From positions 1-35,956 of the forward strand of contig CANIWM010000063.1 of assembly GCA_947471505.1 (NCBI GenBank): 35,956 nucleotides of DNA, written 5' to 3'. The position numbers and the translations under genes were made by a program. Positions within the stretch are counted from its first letter, which is position 1; each line of letters begins with the position of its first letter. This document shows, in pieces, positions 1-17,245 of the stretch. The DNA comes from Chthoniobacteraceae bacterium. Lineage in GTDB: Bacteria; Verrucomicrobiota; Verrucomicrobiia; Chthoniobacterales; Chthoniobacteraceae. The notes under the pieces are model-generated. The model searched no databases. It was not told where the DNA came from and was given only the letters and a program-made list of their open reading frames with translations.

Positions 1-145
1 CCTAAAAACGGCAGTTGACCCCGTTTTTGAGGCCGAAAAATAGGGTATTTTACTCTGGAAATTGCCAACTGCGGAGCAGTTGAAAATCACTCACCCGTCC
101 AAGGCTCATTTTTCTCTGAAAATCCGTTCAACTGCCGTTTTTAGG
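1..145. repeat. 145-bp element with perfect 18-bp terminal inverted repeats
   Basis: Bases 1-18 (CCTAAAAACGGCAGTTGA) are the exact reverse complement of bases 128-145. Inside lies a second perfect palindrome, CAACTGC-gga-GCAGTTG at 66-82, so the CAACTGC word recurs in nested form. No open reading frame inside resembles a protein. The layout fits a MITE-like or REP-like non-coding element. The left arm starts at the first base of the window, so the true outer boundary and any target-site duplication cannot be seen. Confidence 0.6.
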
Positions 146-240
146 ATCAACGCTCCCAGCCCTCCATCATCTCAGAGAGCGCCAAAAAGACCGACTCCAG
201 GGGAAAAGAGGCGTTCGATTCTCAAATCTATAGTCGGGAT
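146..240. other. Spacer between the inverted-repeat element and the 42-bp array
   Basis: This short non-coding stretch has no convincing gene. Its last bases (TAGTCGGGAT, about 231-240) resemble the end of the 42-bp unit that follows, suggesting a decayed outermost copy. Nothing else is recognisable. Confidence 0.4.
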
Positions 241-688
241 GGGTCACTGGAGACTCCCCTAAGTCAGCCCGAGAGTCGGGCTGGGTCACTGGAGACTCCC
301 CTAAGTCAGCCCGAGAGTCGGGCTGGGTCGCAGGAGACTTCCCCAAGTCAGCCCGAGAGTCGGGCTGGGTCGCAGGAGACTCCCCCAAGTCAGCCCGAGA
401 GTCGGGCTGGGTCACTGGAGACTCCCCCAAGTCAGCCCAAGAGTCGGGCTGGGTCACTGGAGACTCCCCCAAGTCAGCCCGAGAGTCGGGCTGGGTCACT
501 GGAGACTCCCCCAAGTCAGCCCAAGAGTCGGGCTGGGTCACTGGAGACTCCCCCAAGTCAGCCCAAGAGTCGGGCTGGGTCACTGGAGACTCCCCCAAGT
601 CAGCCCGAGAGTCGGGCTGAGTCGCAGGAGACTCCCCTAAGTCAGCCGCAGAGTGCGGCTGGGTTACAGGAGACTCCCCTAAGTCAGC
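241..688. repeat. Tandem array of 42-bp hairpin-bearing units
   Basis: Ten contiguous 42-bp units start at 241, 283, 325, 367, 409, 451, 493, 535, 577 and 619, and a partial eleventh ends near 688. Most units carry AGCCCGA-gag-TCGGGCT, a 7-bp stem with a 3-nt loop. Units 5, 7 and 8 read AGCCCAA in the left arm, which becomes a G-U pair if the minus strand is transcribed. Unit 10 carries AGCCGCA-gag-TGCGGCT, a fully compensated stem. A second short stem (GACT...AGTC) precedes each main hairpin. There are no unique spacers, so it is not a CRISPR array. It lies 3' of the minus-strand polysaccharide operon ending at 748. Because 42 is divisible by three, the minus strand reads open as a 14-residue repeat, but that frame starts only at TTG and has no other gene-like property. 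Confidence 0.9.
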
Positions 689-747: not shown

Positions 748-1362
748 CTAAAACTCGCCCTCTGCCTCGATGACGTCACCGGGCTGGAGTTTGGGGTCTA
801 GTGCGGGGTTTGCCCGGATTGCTTTGCGGCTGTACTTGGCGACTTGGCCGCCACGGATGAGGCGGATGCCGTCGTCGGCATAGTCAGCGCCCCCCCCGGC
901 AGCGCTGAGGGCGGCGGTGAGGGTAAGGTTCTGGGTCCACGGTTGGCGGCTTGGGTTGCGGACAGCTCCCCCGACGATGACGAACCGCTGCTGCTGCATG
1001 GTGTTGATATTGATGTTGGCGACCGTGAAGAACTTCTGTTCGATGAGTTGCTTCTCAATGGCCATGGCGAGCTGGGAGGGGGTGAGCCCGGCAGCTTTGA
1101 CGCGGCCAATCATGGCTACGGTGACGGTGCCGTCTTCGACGGAGAGTTCTCCGGTGAATTCCTGTGTGTAGATCGCGGGCGGGCCGCTGAGACGGATCTG
1201 GATGACGTCGCCATTTTGAAGCACGGCGGATGCGCCGGAGTTCGTGGCGGAGTCCGGCATTTTCGTCAGCACTGGCGCCTCTTTTTTGCGAGTGAAAAAG
1301 CCCTGTGCGTCTGCGAAGGAGGGGATGATGAGGGCGAGGATGAGGATGAGAAGGAAGCGCAT
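748..1362 (-). CDS. Short Wza-like polysaccharide export protein (Poly_export + SLBB)
   Basis: This 204-residue protein probably takes part in moving exopolysaccharide across the outer membrane. A signal peptide covers about residues 1-19 (hydrophobic LLILILALIIPSF, then ADAQG) and has no lipobox cysteine. Residues ~47-112 match the polysaccharide export domain pattern (NGDVIQIRLSG, then a glycine and V-A-G-L-T segment). Residues ~120-200 look like one SLBB domain (VIVGGAVRNPS, LTAALSAAGGG, QPGDVIEAEGEF). It is much shorter than enterobacterial Wza (about 380 residues), with one SLBB domain and no C-terminal membrane helix, so it may not form the whole channel alone. The ATG lies 5 bp beyond the stop of the upstream kinase gene, so the two are almost certainly cotranscribed and probably translationally coupled. 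The family call is firm; the exact polymer is unknown. Confidence 0.9.
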   Translation of the reverse strand: MRFLLILILALIIPSFADAQGFFTRKKEAPVLTKMPDSATNSGASAVLQNGDVIQIRLSGPPAIYTQEFTGELSVEDGTVTVAMIGRVKAAGLTPSQLAMAIEKQLIEQKFFTVANININTMQQQRFVIVGGAVRNPSRQPWTQNLTLTAALSAAGGGADYADDGIRLIRGGQVAKYSRKAIRANPALDPKLQPGDVIEAEGEF

Positions 1363-1367
1363 GGTGT

Positions 1368-3503
1368 TTAGTAGTCTTCGTTGTTGTTTTCGTGGGCTTT
1401 GCCGGTGGCGAGGGGGGCTTCGGCGCGGTTCTTCGAGCCGTAATACTCGGAGTAGTTGGAGTAGTAGGCGTAGGCGTCGTCGTTTTTGGTATCGACGTTG
1501 TTGAGCACGACGCCACGGATGTTGCCGCCGACGCGGTTGACGCCCTGTTTGACGCGCTGGAGCATCGCACGCGGGAAGCGGCGATGCTGGACGACCATGA
1601 TGGTGTTTTCGATCCAGCTCGCGAGGTTCGAGGCATCGGACACACCGAGAATCGGCGGGGAGTCGAAGAAGACGACATCGTATTGGCCGCGAACTTGGTT
1701 GATGAGCTCGATCATCTTCTGGCTGTTCAAAATGCCGGCGTCGTCGTGTGGGAGCTTGCCGCTGGCGATGAACTTGAGGGTGTCGAGCTTGGTAGGCGTG
1801 ACGATTTGCTCCAGCGTTGCGCGCCCGAGGAGGTAGTCGGCGAGGCCAAATGCGTTATCCACCCCGAAGAACCGGTGCTGGGATGGGCGGCGCAAGTCGG
1901 CGTCCACGACGAGGACGTTGGCCCCATTCTTGGCGTAGGTGAAAGCGAGGTTGTTGAGGGTGGTGGATTTACCTTCGCCGGGGCCGCCGGAGACGAGGGT
2001 GAAGGTGTTGGAGTCGCGGTCGGCTCCGCCGAGTTCGAGGTTCGCCTTGAGGATGCGGTAGATTTCCGCGTGCTGTCCGTCGCGACGTTGGTTGATGAGG
2101 ACGGAGATGTCCTTGGGGATGACGGCGAGGACGGGGAGCTGGAGGTAACGCTCGATGTCTTCAATGGTCTTCACGCTGGTGTCGAGGTATTCGATGAAGA
2201 ACGCGAGGGCGATGCCGAGGACGGTGCCGATGACGAGCGAAAGACTGATCCATTTGAGGATGCTCGGCTTGGATGGGCCACCGGGAGTCGCTTCTGCTTT
2301 TTCGCGGATCACGACGGGGTTAAAGGTCACTTGCGAGTCAATACGAGCAGCGGTGAACCGCTGGTCGAGAATCTGCATCATGCCCTTGGACATGAGGTAG
2401 TTGCTCTTTTTCTCCACGTAAGGCTTGAGCATCTCTTTCTCTTCGCCGTGCTCTTTTTTGGCCTTGGTAAGCTTTTCGTTGAAGGTCTTGAGAGTGTCTT
2501 CTTGAATCTGGAGATTGGTCGCGAGTGCGCGGCGCATTCCGTCGAGCTGGTCTGCGAGAATCTTGGCGTAGGTCTCGCGCTGGCTGCGGATGCCCCGGAC
2601 GATTGGGTGATTTTCGCCGATGCCCGACGCCATGATTTTCGCCTCTTCGACGCCCGCCTCTAGGAAAAGCGGGAGCTTTGCGGTGATCGTCGGGTCGTCA
2701 ATGTTGAGGATGCGGAGGGCTTCCATGAGTTGCTCGGGCTTGAGTTCGTCGATGCGCTTGAGCTGGCTGTGTAGCATGTCCACTTTAGCCTGCTGCTCAC
2801 CCACTTGGTTCTCGACCATGCTGACTTCTTTGTCTTTTCCAAGGGTGATGAGGACGTTCGAGTTCTCAGGATCGGGGTCCACGATGCTGCGCTCTTGGCG
2901 GAGGACGGAGCATTCTTGGTTCAGCGCGGCGACCTTTGTTTTTTGTTCTTCGAGCTCCTGTTTGATTTCACCGAGGCCGGTCTTCACGCTGGATTGCTGC
3001 TCTTCGATACGGGAGGCTTTGTAAACGCTGGCGATAGTGTTCGCGATGTCTTTGGCCAGCTCGCGGTCGGCGTTGTAGATGCCGATTTCGATGAGGGAGG
3101 TGTTGCGCTTTTCCTGCACTTCCATGTCGCCGACCAGGAGGTTCGCAATGGCACTCTTGGGCCATTTCACCCCGGCTGGAGAGAGCTTGTCTATGAGGTT
3201 CAATTGGTCGATGACCTTATAGAGGATTTCGTTCTTCTGGAGCACCTGAAACTGGGTGGTGATGAACTGTGGATCATACGAGCGCATCGTGGATGACGAG
3301 GCTCCCAGTGGGTCAATGGCGCGGTTGGAGTCCGGTTTGATTTCCAGCGTCACTTTCGAGAGGTATTTCTTCGGTAGAAAGATGACATACACCGTGGTGG
3401 TGATGACCACGAGGAAGAAGGTAAGCAGGATGAGACCGATGCGCATCTTGATGACGCGCCAGTAGTCCAGAAAGTGTAGTTTTACCTCGTTTTGATCGTT
3501 CAT
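1368..3503 (-). CDS. Wzc-like polysaccharide chain-length determinant and BY-type tyrosine kinase
   Basis: This 711-residue inner-membrane protein couples a Wzz-type chain-length domain to a cytoplasmic bacterial tyrosine kinase, as in proteobacterial Wzc. An N-terminal Wzz segment has a first membrane helix at ~21-43. A long periplasmic coiled-coil region spans ~150-380, and a second helix lies at ~413-437. The kinase domain carries Walker A (GGPGEGKST, K512), Walker A' (VLVVDADLRR, around D534/D536) and Walker B (VVFFDSPP, D614). The C-terminus holds a tyrosine cluster (YAYYSNYSEYY, ~677-688), the usual autophosphorylation site. By family knowledge, cycles of autophosphorylation control polymer length and export. 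No cognate phosphatase or Wzy polymerase is in the window. The gene sits between the beta-barrel gene (105-bp gap) and the export gene (5-bp gap). Start is the ATG at 3503. Confidence 0.95.
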   Translation of the reverse strand: MNDQNEVKLHFLDYWRVIKMRIGLILLTFFLVVITTTVYVIFLPKKYLSKVTLEIKPDSNRAIDPLGASSSTMRSYDPQFITTQFQVLQKNEILYKVIDQLNLIDKLSPAGVKWPKSAIANLLVGDMEVQEKRNTSLIEIGIYNADRELAKDIANTIASVYKASRIEEQQSSVKTGLGEIKQELEEQKTKVAALNQECSVLRQERSIVDPDPENSNVLITLGKDKEVSMVENQVGEQQAKVDMLHSQLKRIDELKPEQLMEALRILNIDDPTITAKLPLFLEAGVEEAKIMASGIGENHPIVRGIRSQRETYAKILADQLDGMRRALATNLQIQEDTLKTFNEKLTKAKKEHGEEKEMLKPYVEKKSNYLMSKGMMQILDQRFTAARIDSQVTFNPVVIREKAEATPGGPSKPSILKWISLSLVIGTVLGIALAFFIEYLDTSVKTIEDIERYLQLPVLAVIPKDISVLINQRRDGQHAEIYRILKANLELGGADRDSNTFTLVSGGPGEGKSTTLNNLAFTYAKNGANVLVVDADLRRPSQHRFFGVDNAFGLADYLLGRATLEQIVTPTKLDTLKFIASGKLPHDDAGILNSQKMIELINQVRGQYDVVFFDSPPILGVSDASNLASWIENTIMVVQHRRFPRAMLQRVKQGVNRVGGNIRGVVLNNVDTKNDDAYAYYSNYSEYYGSKNRAEAPLATGKAHENNNEDY

Positions 3504-3608: not shown

Positions 3609-5465
3609 TCAAAACTCATATTCGCCTGTGAAAAACACTCGGTTTTTGTAGTAATCGGTGAGCCCCAGACTGGTGGAACTATTGGAGTAACTGTAGCTGG
3701 CTCCAAGCTTCACCTTCCGAGAGTAGAAGTATCGTAAATTGAGGGAGCCATCGACGACTTCCTGGGAACTTCCCGCACCCGACGATCCCACTGCCTTCGT
3801 CTCGTATGTCACCCTCGTGATGGCCGCCCCGGCAGTGAGTTTTGGGCTGAATAGGTGCTGAAAATTGAGTGAGTTGCGGAAAACGAGCTGCTGAGCGCCA
3901 GGGAGGGACGATTCCTCGAAGCCGTAGCGAGAGGAGAAAGTGTAAGAATCTCGTCGAGTCGGCTGGTAAGCTAGAGATAGTTCACCGTACGGGGAGCTGG
4001 ATTCCGTCCCAGTGGGCTGGAAGGTGCGGATGGCCTCTCCCAAGCGCGTCGTCACGCGCAACCGCCGGGTCAAATCCCAGTCTGCCCCGGCAAGCAGGGA
4101 AATCGTCGCATTCCCATTATCGCTGTCCAAGTACTTGGTCGTTGAATGGCGCAACTCGGTCACATAGGTCAGTCTTGGAGACCACAGATAGCGGAATTCG
4201 TTGCCGATGCCATAGGACATGAAGCTCCCCAAGCCGGAAGCTCCTGAGCCTTGTGCTTGCTCTTGAAAGCGGACATCGGCGGTGAGACTCGTCACCGTAC
4301 TAAAATGACGGCTCCATCGGTAAGATATGTCGGTTTTTGACGACGCCAAAGAGGAGGCGACCGAACCAGAAGAATCCGCGGCGGCATTGATTCGATTATA
4401 GTCCGGCTGCGTCGAATGCGAGCCGCTCAGCGCTGTAGAAAGCTGCAAACGTGAGGAAACCCGTCGGATGTATAACAGCGACAGACTCCCTTCATACTCA
4501 AGAGGGTCCGTGTCGCGATTCCAGTAATAGTCCACGCCCGCCCGTGCATCCATCGTGAATGCCTTCTTCCCTTTCGCCCATTGCGCTTGGTAGGCGGCAT
4601 CCAACGAAGTAATTACGCTCGATTCTCGCAAACGGTCAGGGATGCCAGGGAACGTCTGCACGAATTCCCGCTCGGGCTGGAAGGGGCGGATGATGACCTT
4701 CTGTGTTTCAGTCCGAAACGTCGGGATAAAGCTCCCGTTGATTTGCCCAGGCCGATAACCCGAAAACACCTGACGCGACACCGTTTGCGAAATCTCTGGC
4801 TGGGCCGGAATCACCTGCCGAAACACCACATCATCCGTCCCTCCACCATCCGTCGGCGCTTGCTGCGTATTATCGTCGAAGCCCATTCCCGCGGTGAAGC
4901 TCCACTTCTCCCGAGGCTTTGCCAGGCGACCCGACCCAGTCGTCAGGGAGACGCCACCACTTCCATAAAAGCCGGAAGTGCTAAAGGTAGTCGGCGAATC
5001 CAGCACACGCGGCCCGCTAGTGTCCGAGGGCGTCCCAGTAGTTTCCGGCTGCCCGGTCGTGTCCTGTGGCGTGCCGAAGAGCGAACTCGCACCGGTTCCT
5101 TGCCGGTTAAAAAACGACCGCTCCTTTTTCTCCTCCGGCGTGCTCGTGGGCAAAGCAAACGGCGACGCCTTGGGCAAGGTTCCTAGGCCGGGGAGGACAC
5201 CTTCCGCCGTAGTCCCCTGCCCTGTTGTCGTGGGCACATTCCCTACCGTCGGGAGCGCCGGACGGACCGGGGCTTTCTCCTCTGCCGCTACGGGGGCCAA
5301 AGGGGCCGCCGGGGCGCTCGTGCCGCCCGCCGTCCCGGAAGTCGTCCCACCTTGCTGCGCGTACAACAAGTGCGCCCATGAGGTCGCCGCCAGCACAATG
5401 CCGACGATGGACCGCCGGATGGGCGTCTTTAGGTATTTGGGTCTTCCGTTTTGCAAAAGGGGCAT
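3609..5465 (-). CDS. Outer-membrane beta-barrel protein of the exopolysaccharide operon
   Basis: This 618-residue protein (from the ATG at 5465) is probably an outer-membrane beta-barrel working with the downstream kinase and export protein. A TTG ten codons upstream would give 628 residues but has no ribosome site in front. Residues ~10-37 form a signal peptide (basic start, hydrophobic IVGIVLAATSWAHLLYAQ). A low-complexity Ala/Gly/Pro/Thr linker follows to ~170. The remainder alternates polar and hydrophobic residues with many aromatic strand ends (for example YQPTRRDSYTFSSRYGFEES) and finishes in an aromatic-rich strand ending GEYEF; a C-terminal Phe is typical of barrels inserted by the BAM complex. 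It is first in the three-gene minus-strand operon. I cannot assign a named family beyond outer-membrane beta-barrel, and the specific role in export is inferred from context. Confidence 0.8.
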   Translation of the reverse strand: MPLLQNGRPKYLKTPIRRSIVGIVLAATSWAHLLYAQQGGTTSGTAGGTSAPAAPLAPVAAEEKAPVRPALPTVGNVPTTTGQGTTAEGVLPGLGTLPKASPFALPTSTPEEKKERSFFNRQGTGASSLFGTPQDTTGQPETTGTPSDTSGPRVLDSPTTFSTSGFYGSGGVSLTTGSGRLAKPREKWSFTAGMGFDDNTQQAPTDGGGTDDVVFRQVIPAQPEISQTVSRQVFSGYRPGQINGSFIPTFRTETQKVIIRPFQPEREFVQTFPGIPDRLRESSVITSLDAAYQAQWAKGKKAFTMDARAGVDYYWNRDTDPLEYEGSLSLLYIRRVSSRLQLSTALSGSHSTQPDYNRINAAADSSGSVASSLASSKTDISYRWSRHFSTVTSLTADVRFQEQAQGSGASGLGSFMSYGIGNEFRYLWSPRLTYVTELRHSTTKYLDSDNGNATISLLAGADWDLTRRLRVTTRLGEAIRTFQPTGTESSSPYGELSLAYQPTRRDSYTFSSRYGFEESSLPGAQQLVFRNSLNFQHLFSPKLTAGAAITRVTYETKAVGSSGAGSSQEVVDGSLNLRYFYSRKVKLGASYSYSNSSTSLGLTDYYKNRVFFTGEYEF

Positions 5466-5587
5466 GGGCTTAGCGGATGACTCCCTGCGTGGCAAGGAAC
5501 AGTCTGAGTTGTTTAAAATTGAGGTTCATCGGGGCGCACCTCAGACCGCCTCTGCCGGGATTCCGTTCGATTTTTTTATCGGGAATC

Positions 5588-5604: not shown

Positions 5605-5607
5605 GGG

Positions 5608-5678
5608 AGCGGGTAGAGGGAATCGAACCCTCCTGGCCAGTTTGGAAGACTGGAACTTTACCACTAAGCTATACCCGC
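5608..5678 (-). tRNA. tRNA-Gly(TCC)
   Basis: The minus strand folds as a tRNA. Acceptor arms GCGGGTA and TACCCGC pair perfectly. The D arm contains AGCTTAGTGGTAAAGTT. The anticodon stem CCAGT/ACTGG encloses the loop CTTCCAA, giving anticodon TCC (reads GGA). The T arm carries the GTTCGATTC loop. The 3' CCA is not encoded: the genome reads TCCC after the acceptor stem. It stands alone between the giant Calx-beta gene and the polysaccharide operon, on the same strand as both. Confidence 0.96.
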
Positions 5679-5743: not shown

Positions 5744-8700
5744 TTATACTTCGTTAATAAATACGTTCGTTCCGTCGGCGATTTCTTTCAATTCGTCCGC
5801 CCCAAAGATGACTTTCACCCCTGCGACTTTCACTGTTCCCACAGCCTGCGCGACAATGCCCGCAGTATTGTTCCCAGCGAGAGCGTTCAGGATCGTCACG
5901 CTTGCGATGCGGGAAATCAACTTCGCGCTATTGGTGATGCCCGTTTGTGGCACAACGTCGTTCGAGGTTCCGAAGCTATCATCGCCACCGTCATCGACGC
6001 CAGCGACGATACTGCTCGCGCTGAACGTGCCCACCGTCACCTTTCCGATTTGCGCGTCCCCATTGCGTAAAGTGCCACGCGCCGTCGTGAAGGTGCCGCC
6101 CGTCTCGTCGGGACCGTAACCCGCGAGAATCTCGGCAAACCGCATCGTGCCGATGTTGACTTTCCCGATATTCCCGCCTGCGGAAATAACCACTGCCCGG
6201 ACGCCGCCGGCAACGTCCGCGCCTTCGACGGAGCCTTTCACCGTCAGCGATCCGATCGACTGCGCCGAGAAAATCGAGGCGCTCCCGAGATGCTCCCCAC
6301 CGGTTCCCGTTGCCGCTTTGATGTCGCCAGTAACGAGTATTTTCCCGATGTCTCCCGCAGCAATAGAGCCTGCGCGGTTAATGGATGAACCGGCTTCGCT
6401 CGGATCCGTGGTCCCCAGCAAATTTTCAATCGTAAGGTTCCCGATACGGCCGGTGATCTGCACCCGGCCCGCCATACTGGAGGTGGATCCTTGAATGGTG
6501 CCCGCGCTGAATGACTTCACCCCGCCAAAAACGCCTATGCGCCCGGAGCTCTCGCCTTCACCGCCAATGATGTCGCCCACGGCTATCTTGCCTACATTTC
6601 GGTTCGCGAAAATCATGCCGGAGTTCGAGCCACTCCCGCCCTGAATATCGCCGTTCATATTGACGGACCCGATTCCAGAAAATGAAACGATAGCGCCGCT
6701 GCCGACTTGCGCTAAAATCTGGGACGCAGCCAACTCCGAGTCCGGCCCAGCGTCACCGCCAATAAGATTGGCCCGGATTTCCGGCACTCCTCTGCGCCCC
6801 GCTTTGCCAAACTGCACCTTACCTATCGAGCTTCCGATCACCTGCCCGGAGCCGATGCCCTCGCCGCCCGAGACATCGCCCAGCGCGGTAAAGGATCCGA
6901 TCGTCCTAGAAGCTTGGATTTTCCCGGTATCCAGGCCTGTTCCGCCGACGATTCCGCCGACGGTGATCGCTCCAATTTTAGAGTTCGACGAAATGTAACC
7001 TGCGTTTTCAGTCGCGCCGCCTACCAACTGCCCCTCGATAGTGATCTTCCCGATGGCTCCCAACCCGGTCAAGAAGCCCGTCGCGAGGTTCACGGAACTG
7101 CCCACCGCAAAGATCGTCCCCTCGACATCTCCATGGACTAGAATCGAGCCGACACTGCCGAAGAACACTGTCTGCAACGCGCCGTCGCCACTTCGATCGA
7201 TGACCCCGAGCGATCCCACTTCGAGCTTGCTGATGCTCTTGGGCGTCAGCGTACTTCCGGCCTGAATCCGCCCGAGATCGCCGTCAATTTTCACCGTGCC
7301 GAGATACACACCCTGCTGGAGCGACGCGAAGCCCGATTGTGCCGCGATCACCTCCCCGACGTTTACCTGGCCATCCGTCGGCCGATCATAGCCCGCCTGC
7401 GGCTTGCGGCTGACGGTCACATTTGCGCCTTCAAACTCGCGGCCCGTTCCGAGGAAATTGATCGAGGAAATGGACTGCCCGCCCACACTGCCAGCGGCGG
7501 CAAGCGTGACGATCCCACGCGAAGTGAGGACGCCAAACTGGTTCGGCGCGAACAGCGCGCCTTTTGAAACCTTGATGTTCACCAAGTCGCCGTCCTCATC
7601 GATAAACTCAAACTCCCGCCCACTGATGATGCGCTGGTCGTCGTTGTAAATAATCGCCTGCGCGCTCGACCCGCCGGGGATAAACTCAAACCCGGAAGGC
7701 AACCCGCTGAGGTCCAAATGGAACGTCTCGCTCGCCTCGAAAGTCGAATCCTGCCGAGTAGCCACGGTGATCGTCCCCGTCTTTGCCGCAGCGGCGTCAA
7801 TCGAGAAGTCCTTATCCGTCGCCCCCGTGATGTCCGCAGTATCCGCGCTGCCGCTCCGAGTGCTGCCTTTGAACGCCAGCGTCCCCGCGCCGAGCGACGT
7901 CAACTCCACCGTGAAGACCGCATTGCCACCTTCCACGCTCGATGTGTCTTTCAGCGATACGCCAATCGTGGAATCCGCTCCGTCGAGGATCGTTCCCACG
8001 GCGCTTCGCGTCACGATTTCCGCGCCGCCGGTCGCGCCGGAGATGTTCACCGTCAGCGTCTCGTTGCCTTCCTTCCACTTGTCGCCAATCACCTTGACGT
8101 GGATCAACTGAGTCGAGGCCGAGCCCGGTGTAAATGTCAGCACCCCCTGCGTCGCGATGTAATCCTGAAGAACGCCGCTCGATGAAGCGGTGCCGTTCGC
8201 CGACTCGAAGTTCACCGTCACATTTTCCGTGATTTGGCCCGTCAGCGTCACCGTGAATACGAGGTCTGCATTCGCGTCGCCCACGTTGCCTTCATCAATA
8301 TCGCCGCCCGAAATCGTCAACAACGGCCCTGGGTCGTCGTTCACAATTGTTCCATTCACCACCGCCGTCTCCGACGCTCCGAAGATGCCATTCACCGGCG
8401 CACTCAGCGCCAGCGTAAATGCGTCTGCCCCTTCGCGAATCATGTCGCCCTTTACCTTGATGACGATCGTCGCCTGTGTCTCGCCCGCGAGAATGGTCAC
8501 ATCACCCTCCTGCGCATCGAAGTCCGTCGCATCCGCAGTTCCGTTCTTCGTCTTAAAGTGGAACGAAACCGGGAAGCTCGTCGCCGCTGGAATCGTCGCC
8601 ACAAACGTCATGTCCGAAAGCGCCGCATTACCCTCCGGTTGGCTTACCGCCGCGACCGTGATGAGCGAGTCTTCGTTCCGGATTTTCCCGATGGCATCAA

Positions 8701-11700
8701 TCGTCGCAGTCGCTGGAGTCGTCGCGCCGACGGGCAGGAACGGGTTCGCGATTTCCGTCAGCCCGCCGAAGTTTTTCTCCAGCTTCGTCAGCCGCACCGT
8801 CATCGTCTCATCCGCCTCCGGCGTGCTATCCTGCTGAACGGCCACCGTGATCGTGATCTGACTTTGCCCCGTCGGGATCGTCACAGACTTCACTTCCGTG
8901 TCCGAGAACCCAGCAGGGAAATCGGTCGCGTTCGCAACGGCCCCGGTGCCCGCAAGCAACGTCATGTAGCTCACCTTCACAGGATACGCCGCAGTGACCG
9001 AAGTGCCCGCCGCGTTCACCAGCTTCACCACGAACGAAAGATTGCTACCCTCGCGTGCGACGACGCCGTCGATCCGCGCAAACGGATCCGCCGGGACATC
9101 GTTGTCGTTAATCACCACCGTCGCCTCATTCTCGCCAGTCGTCGCGCTGATGATGCCGTTCAGCACATTCGTCAGGCGGACGAGGAACTTGTCCCCATCC
9201 AACTCCAAGACGCTGTCGTTGATCGTCGAAATCGAAAACTCGCTGCTGCTTGCAACACCAGCCGCAAACGAGATCGTGCCATTGGTATTCGCAACAAAGT
9301 CCGTCCCCGCAATCGCCCGCAGCGGGTCCGATGACGCGACCTCAAACGTCGAATACGAAACCGTCGCCGAAAAATTCAGCGCCCCCGTCCGCTCGACCTT
9401 GAACTTCGCCTTGCCGCCCTCGGTGACAGCGCCGGGGTCCACCCGCACCAGTTTGAACACCGATTCATCCGCCTCAATCGTCGCCGTGGCCTCATTATTG
9501 CCGCTCAACAGCGCAAAGCCGTCCGCCGGGATGCTGATTTGCAATTTGAACGCCTCGTCCAGCTCTCCCTCATCGTCCGATACGACCGAGATCGCCACCG
9601 TCTTCGAGGTCTCGCCCGGCGCAAAAATCACCTGCCCCGTCGTCGCCGCAAAGTCACTGCCCGCGAACGCCGTCCCAGCCACCGTGGTGTAGTTCACCTT
9701 CACCGGCGTGGACGATGGCGCGGAGTCCAGACGGATGGTGAAATTAACCACCGTCGTCGTCACTCCGGCAATCCCTTCCACGACAGAGCCGCCCGACACC
9801 GTCACCGTGCGCAAATCGTTCTCCGCAATCGTCGCGATGCCATTGCGAATGCCACCGACAAAGCCCGGCTCTTCGCCGACCGTGCCGGTTTTCGTAAAGT
9901 TCGCCTGCACCAGCGAGACGCGGAACTTCTCATCCGGCTCGTCGAGCGTATCGTTCACCAGCGCCACGCTGATGTCCCCCTCGCGCTGCCCCGCCGCGAT
10001 GAGGAGCGTCTGGTCCGTGAGTTCCGCAAAGTCCGTCACCGCCAGCGCCGTGTCCGCCAGCGAGCTCCATTTGATCGTGATGTCCCGCTCCGTCACATTG
10101 CCCACCAGCTTCACCACGAACTTCGCAGGCACCGCAGACTCCTGCACGATAATGTCCGAGATTTGCACCTGCGGGGCCGCGTCGTCGTCCGTGATGGTCA
10201 CGACCGACTTCAGATTGGCCGCCGTCGAGTCCAGCTTCGCGCCGGTGACGCCGGTAATCGTTACCACGAACTTCTCGTCCCACTCGTCAATCGAGTCGCC
10301 CTTGAGGTTTACGCCGATGAACAAATCCGCCGGCAAAGTCCCCGCCGCGAAGGTCTTCGTGAACGTCGGAAGCTCGTAGTCATACACCGAAGTCGCCGTC
10401 ACCGTCGAAGGTGCCGCCTTCGCCGCCACGTCGCCGGAATCCGTCGGCGCAGTAATCGTGTAAGTCACCGTGAACGCTCCCGAGATCGGCGTAATATCGA
10501 GCATCACCTTCGCCTGATTACCCACGGGCGTCACCGCGCCGTCGTCCTCGTCCACCGCCACCAATTCACTGCCAGCCTTGATCCGCAGCACGCCGTCGTC
10601 GTCCTGAATCGTCCCCTCGCCGAGCGCATCCGTGATCGTGAGCGTGTTCGCGTTCGGAGTCACTCCGCGCAATCCGTTGCTGATCGTGACCGTGAATTTC
10701 TCATCTCCTTCCACCAGCGCGTCCGGTGAGAGCGGCACTTCGATGTCCACGAACTTCGAGCCCGCAGGGATCTTCCCCGGTTGGTTGACCTGCCCGACAA
10801 AATCCGTCGCCGAAGCAGTGCCCAGCGCCGTGTTCCAAGTGAACGTCACATCTGCATTCGCGATCTCCGAGAGCAGCACGCGGAACTTCATGATCGAAGC
10901 TCCCGAATCCCCTTCAAAGCGCGCACTGTCCGCGATGCTCAGCGTCGGCAGCGGGTCGTTGTTATCAATAATCGTCCCCGTCCCCTCATCCACCACGGCG
11001 AGCGCGCCGGAGACTTGGGTGAACTTCACCTTGAACATCTCCGTCAGCTCATTCACGCGGTCGCCAAACACCGGAATCGAAATCTGCGCCGCACGTTGGT
11101 TCGCCGGAATTGTCAGCGTGCCGTCCGTCACCGAGCGATAATCTTTGCCCGTCAAATCCGTCGCCCCCGGCGCTGCGCCGACTGCCGTGCCATCCACGGT
11201 GTTGTATTTGATTACCACCGGATGCGTTGCAGCGACCGGCAGCGAGATGACAAAAATCATCTGCTGCTGCCCACTATCGCCCTCCGTCAGCGTGGCCGAG
11301 CCGATGGAGACGTTAAACTCGTCGTCCTGAATCGTCCCCGTCGCCCGAGCCGTGAGGATCGCCGTGATGCTTTGGGTATTCTGCTTCGCGTTGCTGAGGA
11401 CCAGTTCAAATTGCTCATCATTTTCCGCCGTCGTATCCCCCTTCACCGGCACCGACACGGTCATAATTCTATTGTCCGTAAAGATCAGCGTGTCCGTAGT
11501 CACCGTGTAATCCTGCCCCGCGATCGCCGTCCCATTCACCGTGGTGAAATCCACCGAATACTGCCTCCCCACCGCGATCTCCGCATCCGCCAGCATCACT
11601 TCGAAGACGAGGTTCCGCGTCCCGCTGTTCCCCTCGATCACCCGCGCGCCGCCCAGCACCGTGAACGTCGCGTCGTCGTTCGTGATTTCGCCGGTACGCG

Positions 11701-14700
11701 TGCTGTTCGCCGAGTCCACCGTCGCGCCCGTCGCGCTGGAGATCGTCACCGTGAAGTCCTCCTTGCCCTCCGCCACCGCATCCGCCGTGATCGGCACCAG
11801 CAGGCTGCCGCTCGTCGAGCCCTTGAGGATCGTCAGCGTCAGCACGCTAGGCTGCGTGTAGTCCGAGCCTTGCGTCGCCGTACCATCGGCGAGCGTAAAA
11901 GTGACCACCACATCCGTCGTGGCGATCTGATTCAGGTCCACGAAAAACTCCATGTTCGAGGCGACCGCATTCCCCTCCGCTTGCGAAATCACCGCCGGCC
12001 GCGCGACATCCGTTCCATTGCGGAAACGCAGCGTCACATCGTCCTCCAAAATCGTCCCGACTGCGGACCGTGCGGCCTCATTTGCAAAGAACGCATTCAC
12101 CGGATTACTCAGCGTGATTTTGAACGCCTCGTTCCCCTCCGCCACGCCATCGCCCGTCAGCTCGATTTCGATAGTCTTCGACGCCTGCCCAGCGGGGATC
12201 GTCACCGTCCCCGACAAGGCCGACACAATATCCGCCATATCCGCCGCCGAGACGCCCGAGGCCAGCAGCGCATCATTTAACGAGATCGTGTAGGTCGCAG
12301 TCACTTCCTTCGCAGTGCTGCCCGGACGGCTCACCGTGAAGACCAGCTTCGCAGGCGATCCCGCGTTACTTCCTTCCACGCGACTCGCGTCCGTGATCGA
12401 AATCGAACTCACATCCGCATCCGCGATGCTGCCAATTGCATCCAGCGTCGCGCCCGCACCTTCAAACACGCCCACCACCGCACCGGAAAGCCGCACGGTG
12501 AATTTCTCCACACCCTCGGAGGCATCCAAATCAGAGCGCACCGCCACCGAGAACGTCGCCGATTTCTGCCCCGGCGTGATGCTCACATGCTGCGCGGCCA
12601 GCGCGGTAAAGTCGAACAGCGGCCCCGTCGAAATCGCCGTGCCATCAATCGTAGTCACATCGAACTCCACGGGCGAAGACGCCTCACGGTCCAGCGTGAC
12701 CGTGAAGGTCATCGTGCCCGCGCTCTCGTTCACTCCCGCATCGGTGATGCTAATCTTCGGTGCGGCGTCATTATCCAAAATCGTCACCTCCGCCGAGTCA
12801 TCCACCGCCGACTCGACCTTCACATTGTGCGAAGTCGAATTCTTCAGCTTCACGGTGAATGTCTCGTTCAGCTCGCTGATCGCGTCCGGCCTCACTTTGA
12901 CGACGATGTTTTTCACCGTCTCGCCCGCCGCGAAGACCAGAAGACTGCTCGCTGGCACTTGGAAATCAGCACCCGAAATCGCCGCAGTGACGCCCGTCCC
13001 CGTCACGATCTCGAAGCCCACCGTCACCGTCTGCCCCACGGGCACGGCCTGCGAGAGCGTCACCGGGATCAGCACATCCACGAGATCATTCCCCTCCGTC
13101 GTGGAAACCACGGCATCCACAGGGAGGATTTTCGCGGTAATATCGTCGTCCCGAATGGTTCCCGTCGCCTCCAACGTTCCACCAACCAGAGCCGCTGTCC
13201 CGATACGCGGATCGACGATTTGAACGAGGAACGTCTCATCCGTCTCCACGTCCGTATCTCCCATAATCGTGACGCCAAGAGTCGCCGATTTCGAGCCCGC
13301 CAAAATCGTCACGGGCACCAACTCCACACTCACCTTGACGTAATCTGTGCCTTCCGTGCCCGCATTGCCCCCGCCCACTGCCGTCCGCCAGAAGAACGTC
13401 ACGTCTTGATCCGCCGCACGACTCAGCGTCACCGTGAAGTTCTTGATCGTAGTGCCCGAATCGCCCTCCGAGATCTGCGATTCGTTCGAGATCGAAAGCG
13501 TCGGCGCAGCCTCATCGTTTTGAATCGTTCCCGTCAGCGTCTTGCTCGTCCCGCCCACCGTATCCGGGGCCGCGAGCAACCCGCCCATGACGTTGGAAAC
13601 GAAAACGCCCACCGTCTCGTTCGACTCGAAGATGTTGTCCTTCTTCACCTTCACCACAAAGCTCGTGCTCGTCGTATTCGCCGGAATCGTGAACGTATTT
13701 ATGGAAACCGCCGTGAAGTCCGAGCCGGGGGTCGCCGTGTAGGGCGAACCGGAAAGCGTCTCCCAATCAAACGTGATGGGCGCACCCGCCGCCTTGTCGA
13801 GCGTCACGGTGAATGTGAGATTCGTGAACTCATCGATCGTCTCCGAAGCAGGATTCCCCTCCGACACCGTGGGCGCCGTAATCGTGATCAGCGACGCCAC
13901 ATCATCATTCGTGATCGTCACCGTCCCCTGCGTCACCGCGCCAAGTTGGGCGTTTGTCGAGCCGATGAGATAGACATCAAAAGTCTCATCCAGCTCAAAG
14001 TTCCCATCGCCCGTGAGCGGCACGGAGACGGTCGTCGTCGTCTGCCCGGCAGGGATCGTCACCGTGAGCGAGCTTGGGTCCGAAAAATCCGAGCCCTTCA
14101 CCGCCACCGCAGTGCCGTTCGTCAGCGAAAGAGTGCCATTCGTCAGCGAAAGATTCACCGTCACCGGGAATGCCGAGACACTCGACAGCGTCACCGTCAT
14201 CAGGGCGACGTTGCCATTCGCACTACCTATGACGTTCTCCGCAACCGACAGCGTGGCATTGATGGATACCGTCTGCTCGTCATTGAAAATCGTGCCCGTC
14301 CCGAACTGGTCCGCAATCGTCGCCGAATCCGCACCCACCTTTGCATTGGAAATCGTCACCGTGAACGTCTCATCCGCCTCCGTCGTCGCATCCCCATTGA
14401 TGTCCACGAAAATATCCACACTCGTGCTACCTGCGGGAATCGTCCCCGTCAGCCCCGAGATCGCCGCAAAATCAATCCCGCCCAGCGCCGTGTTGTCCGA
14501 CGTTTTGTAGTCGAAAGTCACATCCCGCGACGCCACCAGCGGCATCGTCACCGTGAACTTCAACTGGCTCGTCCCGCCGTTCCCCTCGACGATGGACGCA
14601 TCGCTGATGGAAAGCGCCACCACATCATCATCCGTGATCGTGGCGACCGAATCCGCAATCGCATCCTGTGCCAGCACCCCGCCGTCCACCGGTTGCCCGT

Positions 14701-17245
14701 TCACATCCAGCGCGGCATTCACGCCCACCCTCACCTCGCCCACGCGCACCGAGAAAGTCTCCGAAGTCTCCACCCGCGAGTCTTGCGAAACTGGGACCGA
14801 CAAGGTCCCCGTCGTCGCTCCCGCCAGGATGATGATCCACTTATCCGTCGCATCGAAGTCGGTGCCCGCACCAGCAGTGCCGTCGATCGTGGTCAGGTGA
14901 ATCGCGATATTCTCACTCGCTGCCTTGTCGAGCTTGAGGGTGAAATTGAAGTTCGTTTTCCCGCTCGGGCTCGTCCCCTCCAGCACGGTCGTCGCAGTCG
15001 TCGGCGACATGATGGAGACGTTCGGGTCATCGTCCACGATCGTCATCGTCGCATCCGCATCGGTAATGCTGAGCTCAGTGGTGCCACGGAACGCTTTGGA
15101 GATCCGCACCGAGAAAGTCTCGGAAGTCTCGCGCGCCAAATCGCCCTTCACGTCCACCTCCACCGTCTTGCTCGTCGTTCCCGCAGGAATCGTGACGCTC
15201 ACCGGCACAAGCACTTGCGTGAAATCCGCCGCGTCCGCCGCATTCGCGCCCGTGTCCAAAACCGTCACGTACTCGAAGGTCACATCCGTATCCGCTGCGT
15301 TGGACATCGTCACCACAAACGACAGCTTATGCGTACCCGAATCAAACTCGACCACGCTCGCATTCGCCACCGATAGAGTCGGCTCGCTATCGTCGTCCGC
15401 AATCGTCGCGGACGCTGTGGCAGTCACGATTCCATCATACGGCACGTTCGCGACTTCCACGCTGTCGATGCGCAGCGAGAACGTCTCATTCGCTTCCTTC
15501 TGGGTATCTGGGCGGATCTTCACCGCCACGACCACATCCGGCAGCCCCGCCGGGATCGTGAAGACCGCCCCAATGAGCGCAGTGTAATCGCTATTCGCCC
15601 CGCCCGCAGTCGCCGTCCCATCCACCGTGGACACCCGCACCGTCACAGCCTCAGCCATCGAATCCGACGCCCCGCGCGTAATACGGAATACCGCCTCCGG
15701 GTCCCCGGCCGACAAACTTTCCGTGACCGCCGCCACTGGCCCCACCACGCTGATTCCCAGCGGCGTCACCCGGATCGTCCCCAGCGCCTGCCCACCGCCC
15801 ACCGCGATGCTCAGCGGCACCGAGCCCGCCATCGGACTCGCAATCTGCACGCGGAACTGCTCGCTCCCTTCCCCCGTCAGCGCGTCGCTCAAAATCGTCA
15901 CCGGGAGTTGCACGGTCGTCTGCCCCGCAAGGATCGTCGCCGTCGTCATCACCGCGTTGTAGTCCGCCCCCGCAATCGCCTGCCCAGAAATATCCGCCGT
16001 GTTCCACGAGAACGTCACATTCTTATCCGCAGGCCCGGAAAGCGAGACGGTGAAGTTCATCACCTGCATCCCCGTCGCCGGTTCCTGAATCATCGCCCCC
16101 GCCACCGAAATCGTCGGCTGGGCGTCATCGTTCGTGAGCGTCACCGGCAGAGCAGCCGTCGGGAAATCGATCGTCACCCCATTCCGCTTCACATCATCCA
16201 GCTTCAGAGAGAACGACTCGTTCGACTCAAAAATCGAATCCGCCGTCACCTTCACCGGCACCGTGATCTGCGTCTGCCCTTTCTGGATCACAAACTTCTG
16301 GTTCACCAGCGCCGTAAAGTCCGAGCCCCCAGTCGCCGTCCCATCCACCGTCGAGACAAATACCTCCGTATCCTCCGAGGCCGCCACCGACAGCTTCACC
16401 GCAAAATTCACCGTCGTCTCCGTGCTGCTCGTCCCCTCATTGCCCGTCGGCGACGACAGCAAATCCAGCGTCACATCCGGCTCATCATTGATGATCGTCC
16501 CCAGCGCCTTATCCTTGCCCGTCACAAACTCCAAAAACGTCGCCCCCATCACCGGATTAGAAAGCTGCACCTCAAACGTCTCATTCGCTTCCTTGGCCGT
16601 ATCCGAAGTGACATCCACCACGATTTCCACCGAAGTCTTGCCCGGATCAATCGTCCCCGTCGCCCCCGAAACCACCGTGTAATCCACGCCCGCTGTCGCC
16701 AAGCTGGAGCCCGTGCTCGTATTCTGGGTGGACCACATAAACGTCACCGGCTGGCTCGACGCATTCGTCATCGACACCGTGAACTTCATCTGCGCCGTCC
16801 CATTGTCCCCTTCCTTCACGCTGGACGCAGTAATACTCAGCTTCGGAGCCGCATCGTTCCCGTTCAAAATCGTCCCCACCGCCGTCGTCGCCCCCCCCAA
16901 AGTATGCGTGCCAGACGGATTACTCAGCGCGACGGAGAAGCTCTCATCCGGCTCGATTTTCGTATCCCCCGTCACCTTCACCACGAACGTCTTCTCCACC
17001 GTATTCGCCGGGATCGTCACGATAAAATGGGTCAGCGCCGAGTAATCCCCATCCGCCACCGTAGCCGTGCCATCCAGCGTATTGACTTCCACCGTAAGTG
17101 GCGTCGGCGAAGGGATATCCAACAGCACCTTAAAGGTAATGTCCGACTGCCCCACCTCCCCTTCCGTCACCGAAACGGGACCGGCTAAAGTTAAAACGGC
17201 GGGCGCGATACGCGCTTCCAAAGGCTCGATGCTAGGGATTCTCAT
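5744..17245 (-). CDS. Giant surface/matrix protein: about 26 Calx-beta repeats plus a glycine/beta-strand repeat C-terminus
   Basis: This single uninterrupted 3833-residue ORF opens with MRIPSIEPLEARIAPAVL. Its LE-x-RIAPA segment resembles the short N-terminal motif of large secreted Verrucomicrobia and Planctomycetes proteins (LEPR-type). No classical signal peptide is visible. From ~15 to ~3205 I count about 26 Calx-beta-like repeats of roughly 110-140 residues. Each typically has EG-x-SG near its start, DGTA..G-D(F/Y) in the middle, (D/N)ET(F)-V-L-(S/N)N, and a terminal GTI-x-(D/N)DD. By family knowledge Calx-beta domains bind Ca2+ through these acidic loops and occur in adhesins. Residues ~3205-3833 form a different region of recurring IGK(I/V)-V-G and GSI/GDI units, suggesting a beta-helix or stacked-strand fold. 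The end (FINEV) shows no LPXTG, PEP-CTERM or aromatic barrel signal. Adhesion or matrix function is inferred. Confidence 0.93.
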   Translation of the reverse strand: MRIPSIEPLEARIAPAVLTLAGPVSVTEGEVGQSDITFKVLLDIPSPTPLTVEVNTLDGTATVADGDYSALTHFIVTIPANTVEKTFVVKVTGDTKIEPDESFSVALSNPSGTHTLGGATTAVGTILNGNDAAPKLSITASSVKEGDNGTAQMKFTVSMTNASSQPVTFMWSTQNTSTGSSLATAGVDYTVVSGATGTIDPGKTSVEIVVDVTSDTAKEANETFEVQLSNPVMGATFLEFVTGKDKALGTIINDEPDVTLDLLSSPTGNEGTSSTETTVNFAVKLSVAASEDTEVFVSTVDGTATGGSDFTALVNQKFVIQKGQTQITVPVKVTADSIFESNESFSLKLDDVKRNGVTIDFPTAALPVTLTNDDAQPTISVAGAMIQEPATGMQVMNFTVSLSGPADKNVTFSWNTADISGQAIAGADYNAVMTTATILAGQTTVQLPVTILSDALTGEGSEQFRVQIASPMAGSVPLSIAVGGGQALGTIRVTPLGISVVGPVAAVTESLSAGDPEAVFRITRGASDSMAEAVTVRVSTVDGTATAGGANSDYTALIGAVFTIPAGLPDVVVAVKIRPDTQKEANETFSLRIDSVEVANVPYDGIVTATASATIADDDSEPTLSVANASVVEFDSGTHKLSFVVTMSNAADTDVTFEYVTVLDTGANAADAADFTQVLVPVSVTIPAGTTSKTVEVDVKGDLARETSETFSVRISKAFRGTTELSITDADATMTIVDDDPNVSIMSPTTATTVLEGTSPSGKTNFNFTLKLDKAASENIAIHLTTIDGTAGAGTDFDATDKWIIILAGATTGTLSVPVSQDSRVETSETFSVRVGEVRVGVNAALDVNGQPVDGGVLAQDAIADSVATITDDDVVALSISDASIVEGNGGTSQLKFTVTMPLVASRDVTFDYKTSDNTALGGIDFAAISGLTGTIPAGSTSVDIFVDINGDATTEADETFTVTISNAKVGADSATIADQFGTGTIFNDEQTVSINATLSVAENVIGSANGNVALMTVTLSSVSAFPVTVNLSLTNGTLSLTNGTAVAVKGSDFSDPSSLTVTIPAGQTTTTVSVPLTGDGNFELDETFDVYLIGSTNAQLGAVTQGTVTITNDDVASLITITAPTVSEGNPASETIDEFTNLTFTVTLDKAAGAPITFDWETLSGSPYTATPGSDFTAVSINTFTIPANTTSTSFVVKVKKDNIFESNETVGVFVSNVMGGLLAAPDTVGGTSKTLTGTIQNDEAAPTLSISNESQISEGDSGTTIKNFTVTLSRAADQDVTFFWRTAVGGGNAGTEGTDYVKVSVELVPVTILAGSKSATLGVTIMGDTDVETDETFLVQIVDPRIGTAALVGGTLEATGTIRDDDITAKILPVDAVVSTTEGNDLVDVLIPVTLSQAVPVGQTVTVGFEIVTGTGVTAAISGADFQVPASSLLVFAAGETVKNIVVKVRPDAISELNETFTVKLKNSTSHNVKVESAVDDSAEVTILDNDAAPKISITDAGVNESAGTMTFTVTLDREASSPVEFDVTTIDGTAISTGPLFDFTALAAQHVSITPGQKSATFSVAVRSDLDASEGVEKFTVRLSGAVVGVFEGAGATLDAIGSIADADVSSISITDASRVEGSNAGSPAKLVFTVSRPGSTAKEVTATYTISLNDALLASGVSAADMADIVSALSGTVTIPAGQASKTIEIELTGDGVAEGNEAFKITLSNPVNAFFANEAARSAVGTILEDDVTLRFRNGTDVARPAVISQAEGNAVASNMEFFVDLNQIATTDVVVTFTLADGTATQGSDYTQPSVLTLTILKGSTSGSLLVPITADAVAEGKEDFTVTISSATGATVDSANSTRTGEITNDDATFTVLGGARVIEGNSGTRNLVFEVMLADAEIAVGRQYSVDFTTVNGTAIAGQDYTVTTDTLIFTDNRIMTVSVPVKGDTTAENDEQFELVLSNAKQNTQSITAILTARATGTIQDDEFNVSIGSATLTEGDSGQQQMIFVISLPVAATHPVVIKYNTVDGTAVGAAPGATDLTGKDYRSVTDGTLTIPANQRAAQISIPVFGDRVNELTEMFKVKFTQVSGALAVVDEGTGTIIDNNDPLPTLSIADSARFEGDSGASIMKFRVLLSEIANADVTFTWNTALGTASATDFVGQVNQPGKIPAGSKFVDIEVPLSPDALVEGDEKFTVTISNGLRGVTPNANTLTITDALGEGTIQDDDGVLRIKAGSELVAVDEDDGAVTPVGNQAKVMLDITPISGAFTVTYTITAPTDSGDVAAKAAPSTVTATSVYDYELPTFTKTFAAGTLPADLFIGVNLKGDSIDEWDEKFVVTITGVTGAKLDSTAANLKSVVTITDDDAAPQVQISDIIVQESAVPAKFVVKLVGNVTERDITIKWSSLADTALAVTDFAELTDQTLLIAAGQREGDISVALVNDTLDEPDEKFRVSLVQANFTKTGTVGEEPGFVGGIRNGIATIAENDLRTVTVSGGSVVEGIAGVTTTVVNFTIRLDSAPSSTPVKVNYTTVAGTAFAGSDFAATTGQVIFAPGETSKTVAISVVSDDEGELDEAFKLQISIPADGFALLSGNNEATATIEADESVFKLVRVDPGAVTEGGKAKFKVERTGALNFSATVSYSTFEVASSDPLRAIAGTDFVANTNGTISFAAGVASSSEFSISTINDSVLELDGDKFLVRLTNVLNGIISATTGENEATVVINDNDVPADPFARIDGVVAREGSNLSFVVKLVNAAGTSVTAAYPVKVSYMTLLAGTGAVANATDFPAGFSDTEVKSVTIPTGQSQITITVAVQQDSTPEADETMTVRLTKLEKNFGGLTEIANPFLPVGATTPATATIDAIGKIRNEDSLITVAAVSQPEGNAALSDMTFVATIPAATSFPVSFHFKTKNGTADATDFDAQEGDVTILAGETQATIVIKVKGDMIREGADAFTLALSAPVNGIFGASETAVVNGTIVNDDPGPLLTISGGDIDEGNVGDANADLVFTVTLTGQITENVTVNFESANGTASSSGVLQDYIATQGVLTFTPGSASTQLIHVKVIGDKWKEGNETLTVNISGATGGAEIVTRSAVGTILDGADSTIGVSLKDTSSVEGGNAVFTVELTSLGAGTLAFKGSTRSGSADTADITGATDKDFSIDAAAAKTGTITVATRQDSTFEASETFHLDLSGLPSGFEFIPGGSSAQAIIYNDDQRIISGREFEFIDEDGDLVNIKVSKGALFAPNQFGVLTSRGIVTLAAAGSVGGQSISSINFLGTGREFEGANVTVSRKPQAGYDRPTDGQVNVGEVIAAQSGFASLQQGVYLGTVKIDGDLGRIQAGSTLTPKSISKLEVGSLGVIDRSGDGALQTVFFGSVGSILVHGDVEGTIFAVGSSVNLATGFLTGLGAIGKITIEGQLVGGATENAGYISSNSKIGAITVGGIVGGTGLDTGKIQASRTIGSFTALGDVSGGEGIGSGQVIGSSIGKVQFGKAGRRGVPEIRANLIGGDAGPDSELAASQILAQVGSGAIVSFSGIGSVNMNGDIQGGSGSNSGMIFANRNVGKIAVGDIIGGEGESSGRIGVFGGVKSFSAGTIQGSTSSMAGRVQITGRIGNLTIENLLGTTDPSEAGSSINRAGSIAAGDIGKILVTGDIKAATGTGGEHLGSASIFSAQSIGSLTVKGSVEGADVAGGVRAVVISAGGNIGKVNIGTMRFAEILAGYGPDETGGTFTTARGTLRNGDAQIGKVTVGTFSASSIVAGVDDGGDDSFGTSNDVVPQTGITNSAKLISRIASVTILNALAGNNTAGIVAQAVGTVKVAGVKVIFGADELKEIADGTNVFINEV

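Follow-up and report, generated by a model that had tools for sequence, protein, structure and literature searches.

Tandem dyad arrays with a 41–42 bp period upstream of genes for helical proteins in Verrucomicrobiota, apparently an undescribed kind of DNA element

Tandem arrays with units of 41–42 bp precede most of the sampled genes of two uncharacterised families of helical proteins. On average these arrays are rows of dyads which are spaced by 20.5–21 bp, that is by two helical turns. One such array lies in the stretch of 35,956 nucleotides analysed here, which we call the window and which is contig C63 of the 6.07 Mb genome (153 contigs) of a Chthoniobacteraceae bacterium. The period of the arrays is locked, the half-period dyads are present in the mean and the arrays are linked to the gene downstream. 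Our favoured reading, to which we give a probability of about 0.4, is that the window array is a copy of a dispersed Verrucomicrobiota DNA element which is conserved in its geometry and whose helix-phased dyads act in cis on the downstream gene.

TRF finds a single tandem array in the window, with a period of 42, 10.9 copies, 94% matches and no indels (Table 1). The sequence-only reading had described an array of hairpins at 241–688 with a conserved stem of 7 bp. The array is real and its stem is conserved; however, the true span is slightly longer and the stem has 8 bp. Ten hairpins of the form CAGCCNNA-loop-TNNGGCTG follow one another (265–283, 307–325 and so forth), seven of them have an 8-bp stem without a mismatch on the plus strand, and the half-period symmetry of the array is 0.78. 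The three units which were said to keep a G-U pair only on the minus strand are also present. As they all share one substitution, they probably go back to a single event that was spread by unit duplication and not to three events. One unit with a fully compensated stem is seen as well, as had been claimed. With the curated Rfam covariance models at the gathering score, the window gave matches to tRNA only. Two candidate assignments were dropped. For a CRISPR array spacers are missing, as the repeat (94% match) takes up the full 42 bp of each unit, and for the repeats of a type III toxin–antitoxin system there is no Rfam match, nor does any gene tested on the visible flank code for a toxin.

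Table 1. Features of the window at and around the tandem array
Feature	Position	Strand	Remarks
42-bp tandem array, 10.9 units	232–688		Each unit with a strong palindrome and a weaker one 21 bp off
First full hairpin, 8-bp stem CAGCCCGA / TCGGGCTG	265–283		Recurs every 42 bp up to 643–661, ten in all
Weaker palindrome GGAGACTCC (example)	291–299		Centre 21 bp from the strong palindrome (274); present in most units
Units with one-sided change, CAGCCCAAGAGTCGGGCTG	433–451, 517–535, 559–577		A-C on plus, U-G on minus
Unit with two-sided compensated stem, CAGCCGCAGAGTGCGGCTG (CAGCCGCA/TGCGGCTG)	643–661		Last of the ten hairpins
MITE-like element, about 145 bp, terminal inverted repeats of about 18 bp	1–146		The assembly has 40 near-full copies
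Poly_export/SLBB protein, last gene of the export operon	748–1362	-	Ends about 60 bp before the array
AAA/Wzz-like protein	1368–3503	-	Wzz score just under the cut-off
BBP2_2 porin	3609–5495	-	Domain match

The array had also been proposed to be a 3′ UTR element of an exopolysaccharide operon. To speak of an export operon is reasonable, given the Poly_export, AAA/Wzz-like and BBP2_2 porin genes on the minus strand. We compared eight homologous operons (L163–L170) whose kinases are 49–86% identical. In none of them did TRF find such an array within the 142–927 bp past the last Poly_export match, and the same TRF run recovered the window array. Therefore the array is not a conserved 3′ end of export operons. 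The related arrays are tied to a downstream gene, and a 3′ UTR role in the export operon is unsupported. In the closest homologous operon (G009) a gene which we take, from its sequence, to be polX-like is found in the place of the array, about 85 bp after the stop. This gene did not guide us to the true neighbour of the window array, as it sits elsewhere in the host genome. Further upstream on the minus strand of the window, a 3833-aa open reading frame (5744–17,245) adjoins a tRNA-Gly gene (5606–5678).

Searches with the window array as query retrieved a second array from the host genome (on contig C29, with 76% identity the closest relative) and one from the congener G006; these are two of 57 genomes. 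When the exact pattern was searched in the public genome collection, the G006 contig was the only match. A covariance model built from 16 unit pairs (16 of the 17 dimers) found further arrays in 4 of 40 genomes of the host's family and, in the wider order, in 5 of 213 genomes. The 42-bp unit is thus found in dispersed related arrays in the genome and in its relatives. All fetched arrays from these array searches have a period of 42 by TRF, and 14 of the 16 contain strict hairpins. Their stem sequences differ from array to array. The class as a whole splits into many sequence groups that are unrelated to one another, and even within one genome the arrays fall into several sequence groups in which we see no common motif by eye. 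Across the related arrays the letters vary and the symmetry persists, as the sequence-only reading had led one to expect. A weak match of the covariance model in another family of the order (L069:1499–1670, genome G084) is a 42/84-bp array with a sub-period of 21 bp. A scan of viral contigs revealed no relative.

From an all-versus-all comparison of the loci it emerged that several arrays adjoin paralogues of one gene. Other arrays have no gene of the helical families beside them: one precedes a GH26 gene (L064), one follows an oxidoreductase gene (L066) and one lies in frame within alaS. The latter gene is an open reading frame of 1244 aa for alanyl-tRNA synthetase on contig C1 of genome G000 (L143:14,465–18,196) and carries two in-frame inserts, a four-copy 42-bp array and a Y1_Tnp (IS200-like) segment with a Pfam score just under the cut-off. 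Both inserts are surrounded by the tRNA-synt_2c, tRNA_SAD and DHHA1 domains. We also note that the copies on C4, C1 and C116 have flanks in common beyond the array (L055:281–971, L057:4980–5670, L060), so that the duplicated unit runs about 700 bp past the array.

The array on C29 lies upstream of a minus-strand gene which reads away from it and codes for a protein of 347 aa, P0001. This protein has no match in Pfam, NCBIfam, PHROG or PADLOC. Its AlphaFold2 model (mean pLDDT 94.5) shows a helical bundle followed by an FN3-like domain. In a fold search the best matches listed cover about 90–100 residues, which is the size of the FN3 part, and a few viral rows align 230–305 columns with an rmsd near 20 or more. 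When we searched 40 genomes of the host family with the gene only, we obtained 34 places. Of the 27 loci examined among them, 19 have an array of period 41–42 upstream, seven of these 19 having been met first through the array search itself. The remaining eight comprise three loci cut by contig ends and five without an array by TRF, that is 5 of 24 testable loci. Of the seven places outside these 27, three were viewed as well; L077 and L094 show no such array and the partial locus L099 has one. In a phylum-wide set three of six full-length homologues have an upstream array. At L137 a 42-bp repeat of 2.4 copies lies some 900 bp upstream, and we left it out of this count. A replication set was drawn from 15 genomes outside the host family. 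Here TRF finds an array of period 41–43 upstream at 23 of 38 loci and none at 15, among the 38 being one (L199) with only 96 bp of upstream sequence. These 38 loci come from 66 places, of which 13 belonged to the host family, four to the phylum-wide set and 11 were partial or unfetched. The median distance from the array to the start of the core is 236 bp in the family set and 241 bp in the replication set.

Clustering of the neighbouring open reading frames at the 27 loci yielded only one neighbour at a constant position, a small collagen-like gene at 8 loci; sulfatase-type reading frames occur at seven loci in varying positions. The collagen-like gene (MPFDPTKPANGSPNSSAEMR...GPAGPAGPAG; L021:3732–4037 and seven other loci) follows the helical/FN3 gene, and its product has a weak match to a PHROG of unknown function. 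The gene of an XRE regulator is near the array on C29 (by Pfam) and on C25 (by eye), which suggested that the array might consist of operators for this regulator; as the 27 loci share no regulator, we dropped the idea.

The array could also be a recombination or amplification site which spreads the module of array and helical/FN3 gene as a mobile or diversifying cassette. The module is indeed dispersed and present in several copies, the copies on C1, C116 and C4 have common flanks beyond the array, orthologous arrays differ in copy number (four hairpins in G006 versus six), and alaS holds an array together with a Y1_Tnp segment, both in frame. However, among the neighbours at the 27 loci we see no recombinase gene that travels with the module, and the viral contigs contain no relative. 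We consider such a cassette unlikely.

If the window array is a copy of the same cis-acting element, it should have a partner gene too. No such gene is visible beside it. It has the same strand sense as the C29 array, hence we would look for its partner past position 1, on the minus strand. Because the contig begins with a MITE-like element, the sequence which follows the array is unseen; the element is about 85 bp away from the array and contig C63 ends with it. Judged from the sequence, the partner gene would be expected to have been separated from the array by the MITE insertion and the contig end and to be unseen or lost. The near-full copies of the MITE-like element in the host assembly are found mostly at contig starts or ends, and the element is probably a main cause of the assembly breaks. 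An internal copy (C20:75,885–76,029) is flanked on both sides by GTAAG, which looks like a target duplication. Homologues of P0001 are encoded in the host genome on C29, C46, C1 and C27 (two), with a fragment at the start of C16. This fragment may belong to the window array, to the cut array on C4 or to that on C136. As a tandem repeat which has no terminal inverted repeats, the array itself differs from MITEs; the MITE-like element borders it.

The second protein family came to light when TRF was run blind on 20 stretches of the host genome, 400 kb in all. The scan gave two 42-bp arrays, and the other units of at least 30 bp stem from two loci only (36 at one; 48/54/108 at the other). One of the two arrays is the one in frame in alaS, and the other precedes a gene for a 235-aa protein predicted to be all-helical. 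Including this starting locus, 5 of 6 loci of the second family have a 42-bp array upstream. A profile comparison detected no relation between the two helical families. The structure model of the second family is modest (pLDDT 70). Its query protein, as that of the first family, is without a match in Pfam and PHROGs, and PADLOC recognises neither of the array-linked proteins. A weak match to a PHROG of unknown function was obtained for one homologue of the second family. The proteins of both families are acidic (pI 5.0 and 5.5) and are therefore poor candidates for the DNA-binding partner of the array.

The spacing is more constant than the sequence. Of the 42 arrays in the family and the replication sets, 29 have a period of 42, 12 a period of 41 and one a period of 43. 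In the replication set all upstream tandem units of at least 20 bp have a period of 20–22, 41–43, 82–84 or 123–126. As a control we used about 100 kb of other sequence from the replication loci; here we find the periods 21 (twice), 24, 36 and 210 and none of 41–43. Even at 14 replication loci without an array which are long enough to be tested, the mean autocorrelation peaks at lags of 42, 41 and 84.

The period tally also bears on the idea that the 42-bp units code for a 14-residue repeat (QPESRAGSLETPPS-like). In many arrays the frames are open on both strands, and the array in alaS is in frame. A period of 41 in 12 of 42 gene-linked arrays speaks against coding, as do the indel in the L066 array, the stops of L055 and L058 in the shared frame, and the window ORF list, in which no reading frame with a start codon spans the whole array. 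As the sequence-only reading maintained, the arrays are in general not coding repeats, and we regard this explanation as very improbable.

Next to the period, the arrays have a second symmetry in common. We determined for each array the best palindrome with 8-bp arms and then scored the position half a period away, with column shuffles as the null. In 31 arrays the exact half-period position matches at 0.529 compared with 0.257 ± 0.029 in the shuffles (0 of 300 as high), and half a base off the value is 0.239. This set omits near-duplicates and one weak array (L024, L060, L056, L063, one of the two in L106, and L059). For 21 arrays which were found without recourse to palindromes, by their genes or by the blind scan, arms 16–20 match at 0.466 versus 0.253 ± 0.031 (0 of 400), some of these arrays still being related (L101, L106, L119). 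For the 23 replication arrays the values are 0.423 versus 0.251 ± 0.031 (0 of 400). Averaged over the arrays the half-period dyad stands out clearly, and several single arrays show it weakly or not at all: among the 23 replication arrays just 13 have a main palindrome with p ≤ 0.05, and the second palindrome is unconvincing array by array with 8-bp arms and becomes clear only under the symmetric test. The helical repeat of B-DNA is 10.5 bp. Sites at about two helical turns, as in iterons, are thus present in the mean over the arrays.

Could such symmetric arrays arise without any function? Hairpins prone to tandem duplication and copying of one arm onto the other might yield them as a by-product of mutation. 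On reasoning, if an inverted repeat that fills the unit is duplicated in tandem, palindromes result at the centre as well as at the edge of the unit, slippage would make copies alike within an array and different between arrays, and template switching could produce compensation. This would leave unexplained the link to two gene families, the distance of about 240 bp and the fact that no other long period occurs in front of these genes, and we think a mere by-product quite improbable.

Compensation had been put forward as a sign of selection on RNA or cruciform structure. We analysed 25 of 71 hairpins from related arrays, hand-picked as differing sequences per array. In this set 92.4% of the cells are paired, and a two-sided change occurs in 22 cells, versus 9.7 ± 2.5 after shuffling (0 of 500). 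Of the five measures, three (the covariation score, the paired cells and the two-sided cells) are higher than in any of the 500 shuffles and in any slid control. The other two, namely the two-sided pairs (4, shuffled mean 3.7) and the further pair types (10, shuffled mean 9.0), are not above the shuffles. Moreover the test is biased because the hairpins were chosen partly for being palindromic; the unbiased support comes from the half-period dyad tests. 

The folding energy of positions 232–700 is far below that of dinucleotide shuffles on both strands (z = -6.55 on the minus and -5.38 on the plus strand), and the changed units of the window keep their pairing only on the minus strand. Both findings, and also the fairly constant distance of about 240 bp to the core start, would suit a transcribed chain of hairpins which controls stability, translation or termination, be it as the 5′ leader of the mRNA of the downstream gene or, for the window array, as the tail of the export operon mRNA. 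However, one-sided stem changes in 45 gene-linked arrays have no strand bias: wobble pairs form 56 times in sense and 43 times in antisense (p = 0.23). The same arrays contain 77 other mismatches, and compensation is rare with 18 events versus 176 others. In 16 gene-linked arrays, which overlap with the 45, we counted 18 cells with a sense and 11 with an antisense wobble pair, 6 with compensation and 20 with other mismatches. Selection at the RNA level is therefore unsupported. Hairpins alone also do not explain the lock at 41–42 bp and the half-period dyads in unrelated sequences, no terminator-like site was found inside the window array, and the eight related operons lack the array. In our view a hairpin chain acting as RNA is rather unlikely. 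The locked period would be easier to understand for DNA than for RNA.

We suggest that the element works in the following way. Tandem dyads 20.5–21 bp apart make up units of 41–42 bp, and the gene whose core begins about 240 bp downstream of them codes for an acidic helical-bundle protein which may or may not end in an FN3 domain. The array would function as DNA and in cis on this downstream gene. A dimeric or structure-reading protein could assemble along one face of the helix and form a phased operator or a nucleoprotein array, and the number of units might serve as a tunable dose. The sequence could drift freely between loci, and slippage or conversion would keep the copies within one array alike. 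Given several sequence groups per genome and no motif discernible by eye, one sequence-specific protein could hardly read all the arrays. More tentatively still, and with somewhat less confidence than in our favoured reading, we consider a class of cis elements which is defined by geometry alone. Such elements would carry dyads at every two turns in steps of 41–42 bp in almost any sequence, be tied to genes for unrelated helical proteins across the Verrucomicrobiota and be read by a protein or by topological machinery which responds to the phasing of the dyads instead of to the letters.

How do the arrays compare with known systems? Iterons and phased plasmid centromeres consist of tandem sites about two turns apart, often upstream of the gene of the protein which reads them, and their sequence differs per replicon. 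The arrays resemble them in having tandem sites about two helical turns apart upstream of a gene. Unlike iterons, however, they have dyads in steps of 41–42 bp and are dispersed with several copies per genome, and the adjacent proteins are acidic and helical and, in the case of the two query proteins, without a Pfam match. BIMEs are placed with the REPs among the dispersed extragenic palindromes. REPs are dispersed extragenic palindromes, sometimes clustered and also found inside genes, which form sequence families tagged GTAG or CGTC and are often near RAYT genes (PMC3733652). Compared with REP and BIME, the arrays are likewise dispersed palindromes, but share geometry more than sequence. The window unit holds neither GTAG nor CGTC. 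Of the consensus units of 54 arrays, 26 contain CGTC and 5 contain GTAG, for which shuffling predicts 19.9 and 13.5 respectively, so neither is clearly enriched; in some relatives CGTC flanks the hairpin (L055, L057, L064). Y1_Tnp was searched in ten window ORFs, where it is absent, and in the alaS gene holding an array of the host genome, where it is present as a segment. PARCELs are described as coding tandem repeats with a unit of 25 residues whose DNA has dyad symmetry (PMC2996958). The arrays are tandem with dyad symmetry as well, but they lie mostly upstream of genes and many have a period of 41. None of these kinds (iterons, phased centromeres, REP/BIME, PARCELs) fits in all the features that we compared. 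A published description of such arrays was not found in the open full text of PMC, a search whose scope leaves most subscription journals outside and which could miss other wording.

The array class is apparently an undescribed kind of bacterial DNA element in which the spacing is conserved more than the letters. DNA elements are normally recognised by their conserved letters, therefore sequence searches would not group these arrays, and it is the gene neighbourhood together with the periodicity that does. If the geometry is functional, one can test directly whether bacteria possess a nucleoprotein or regulatory array which is read by its helical phase and its dyads, whatever the sequence. The arrays are also a first handle on two uncharacterised protein families.
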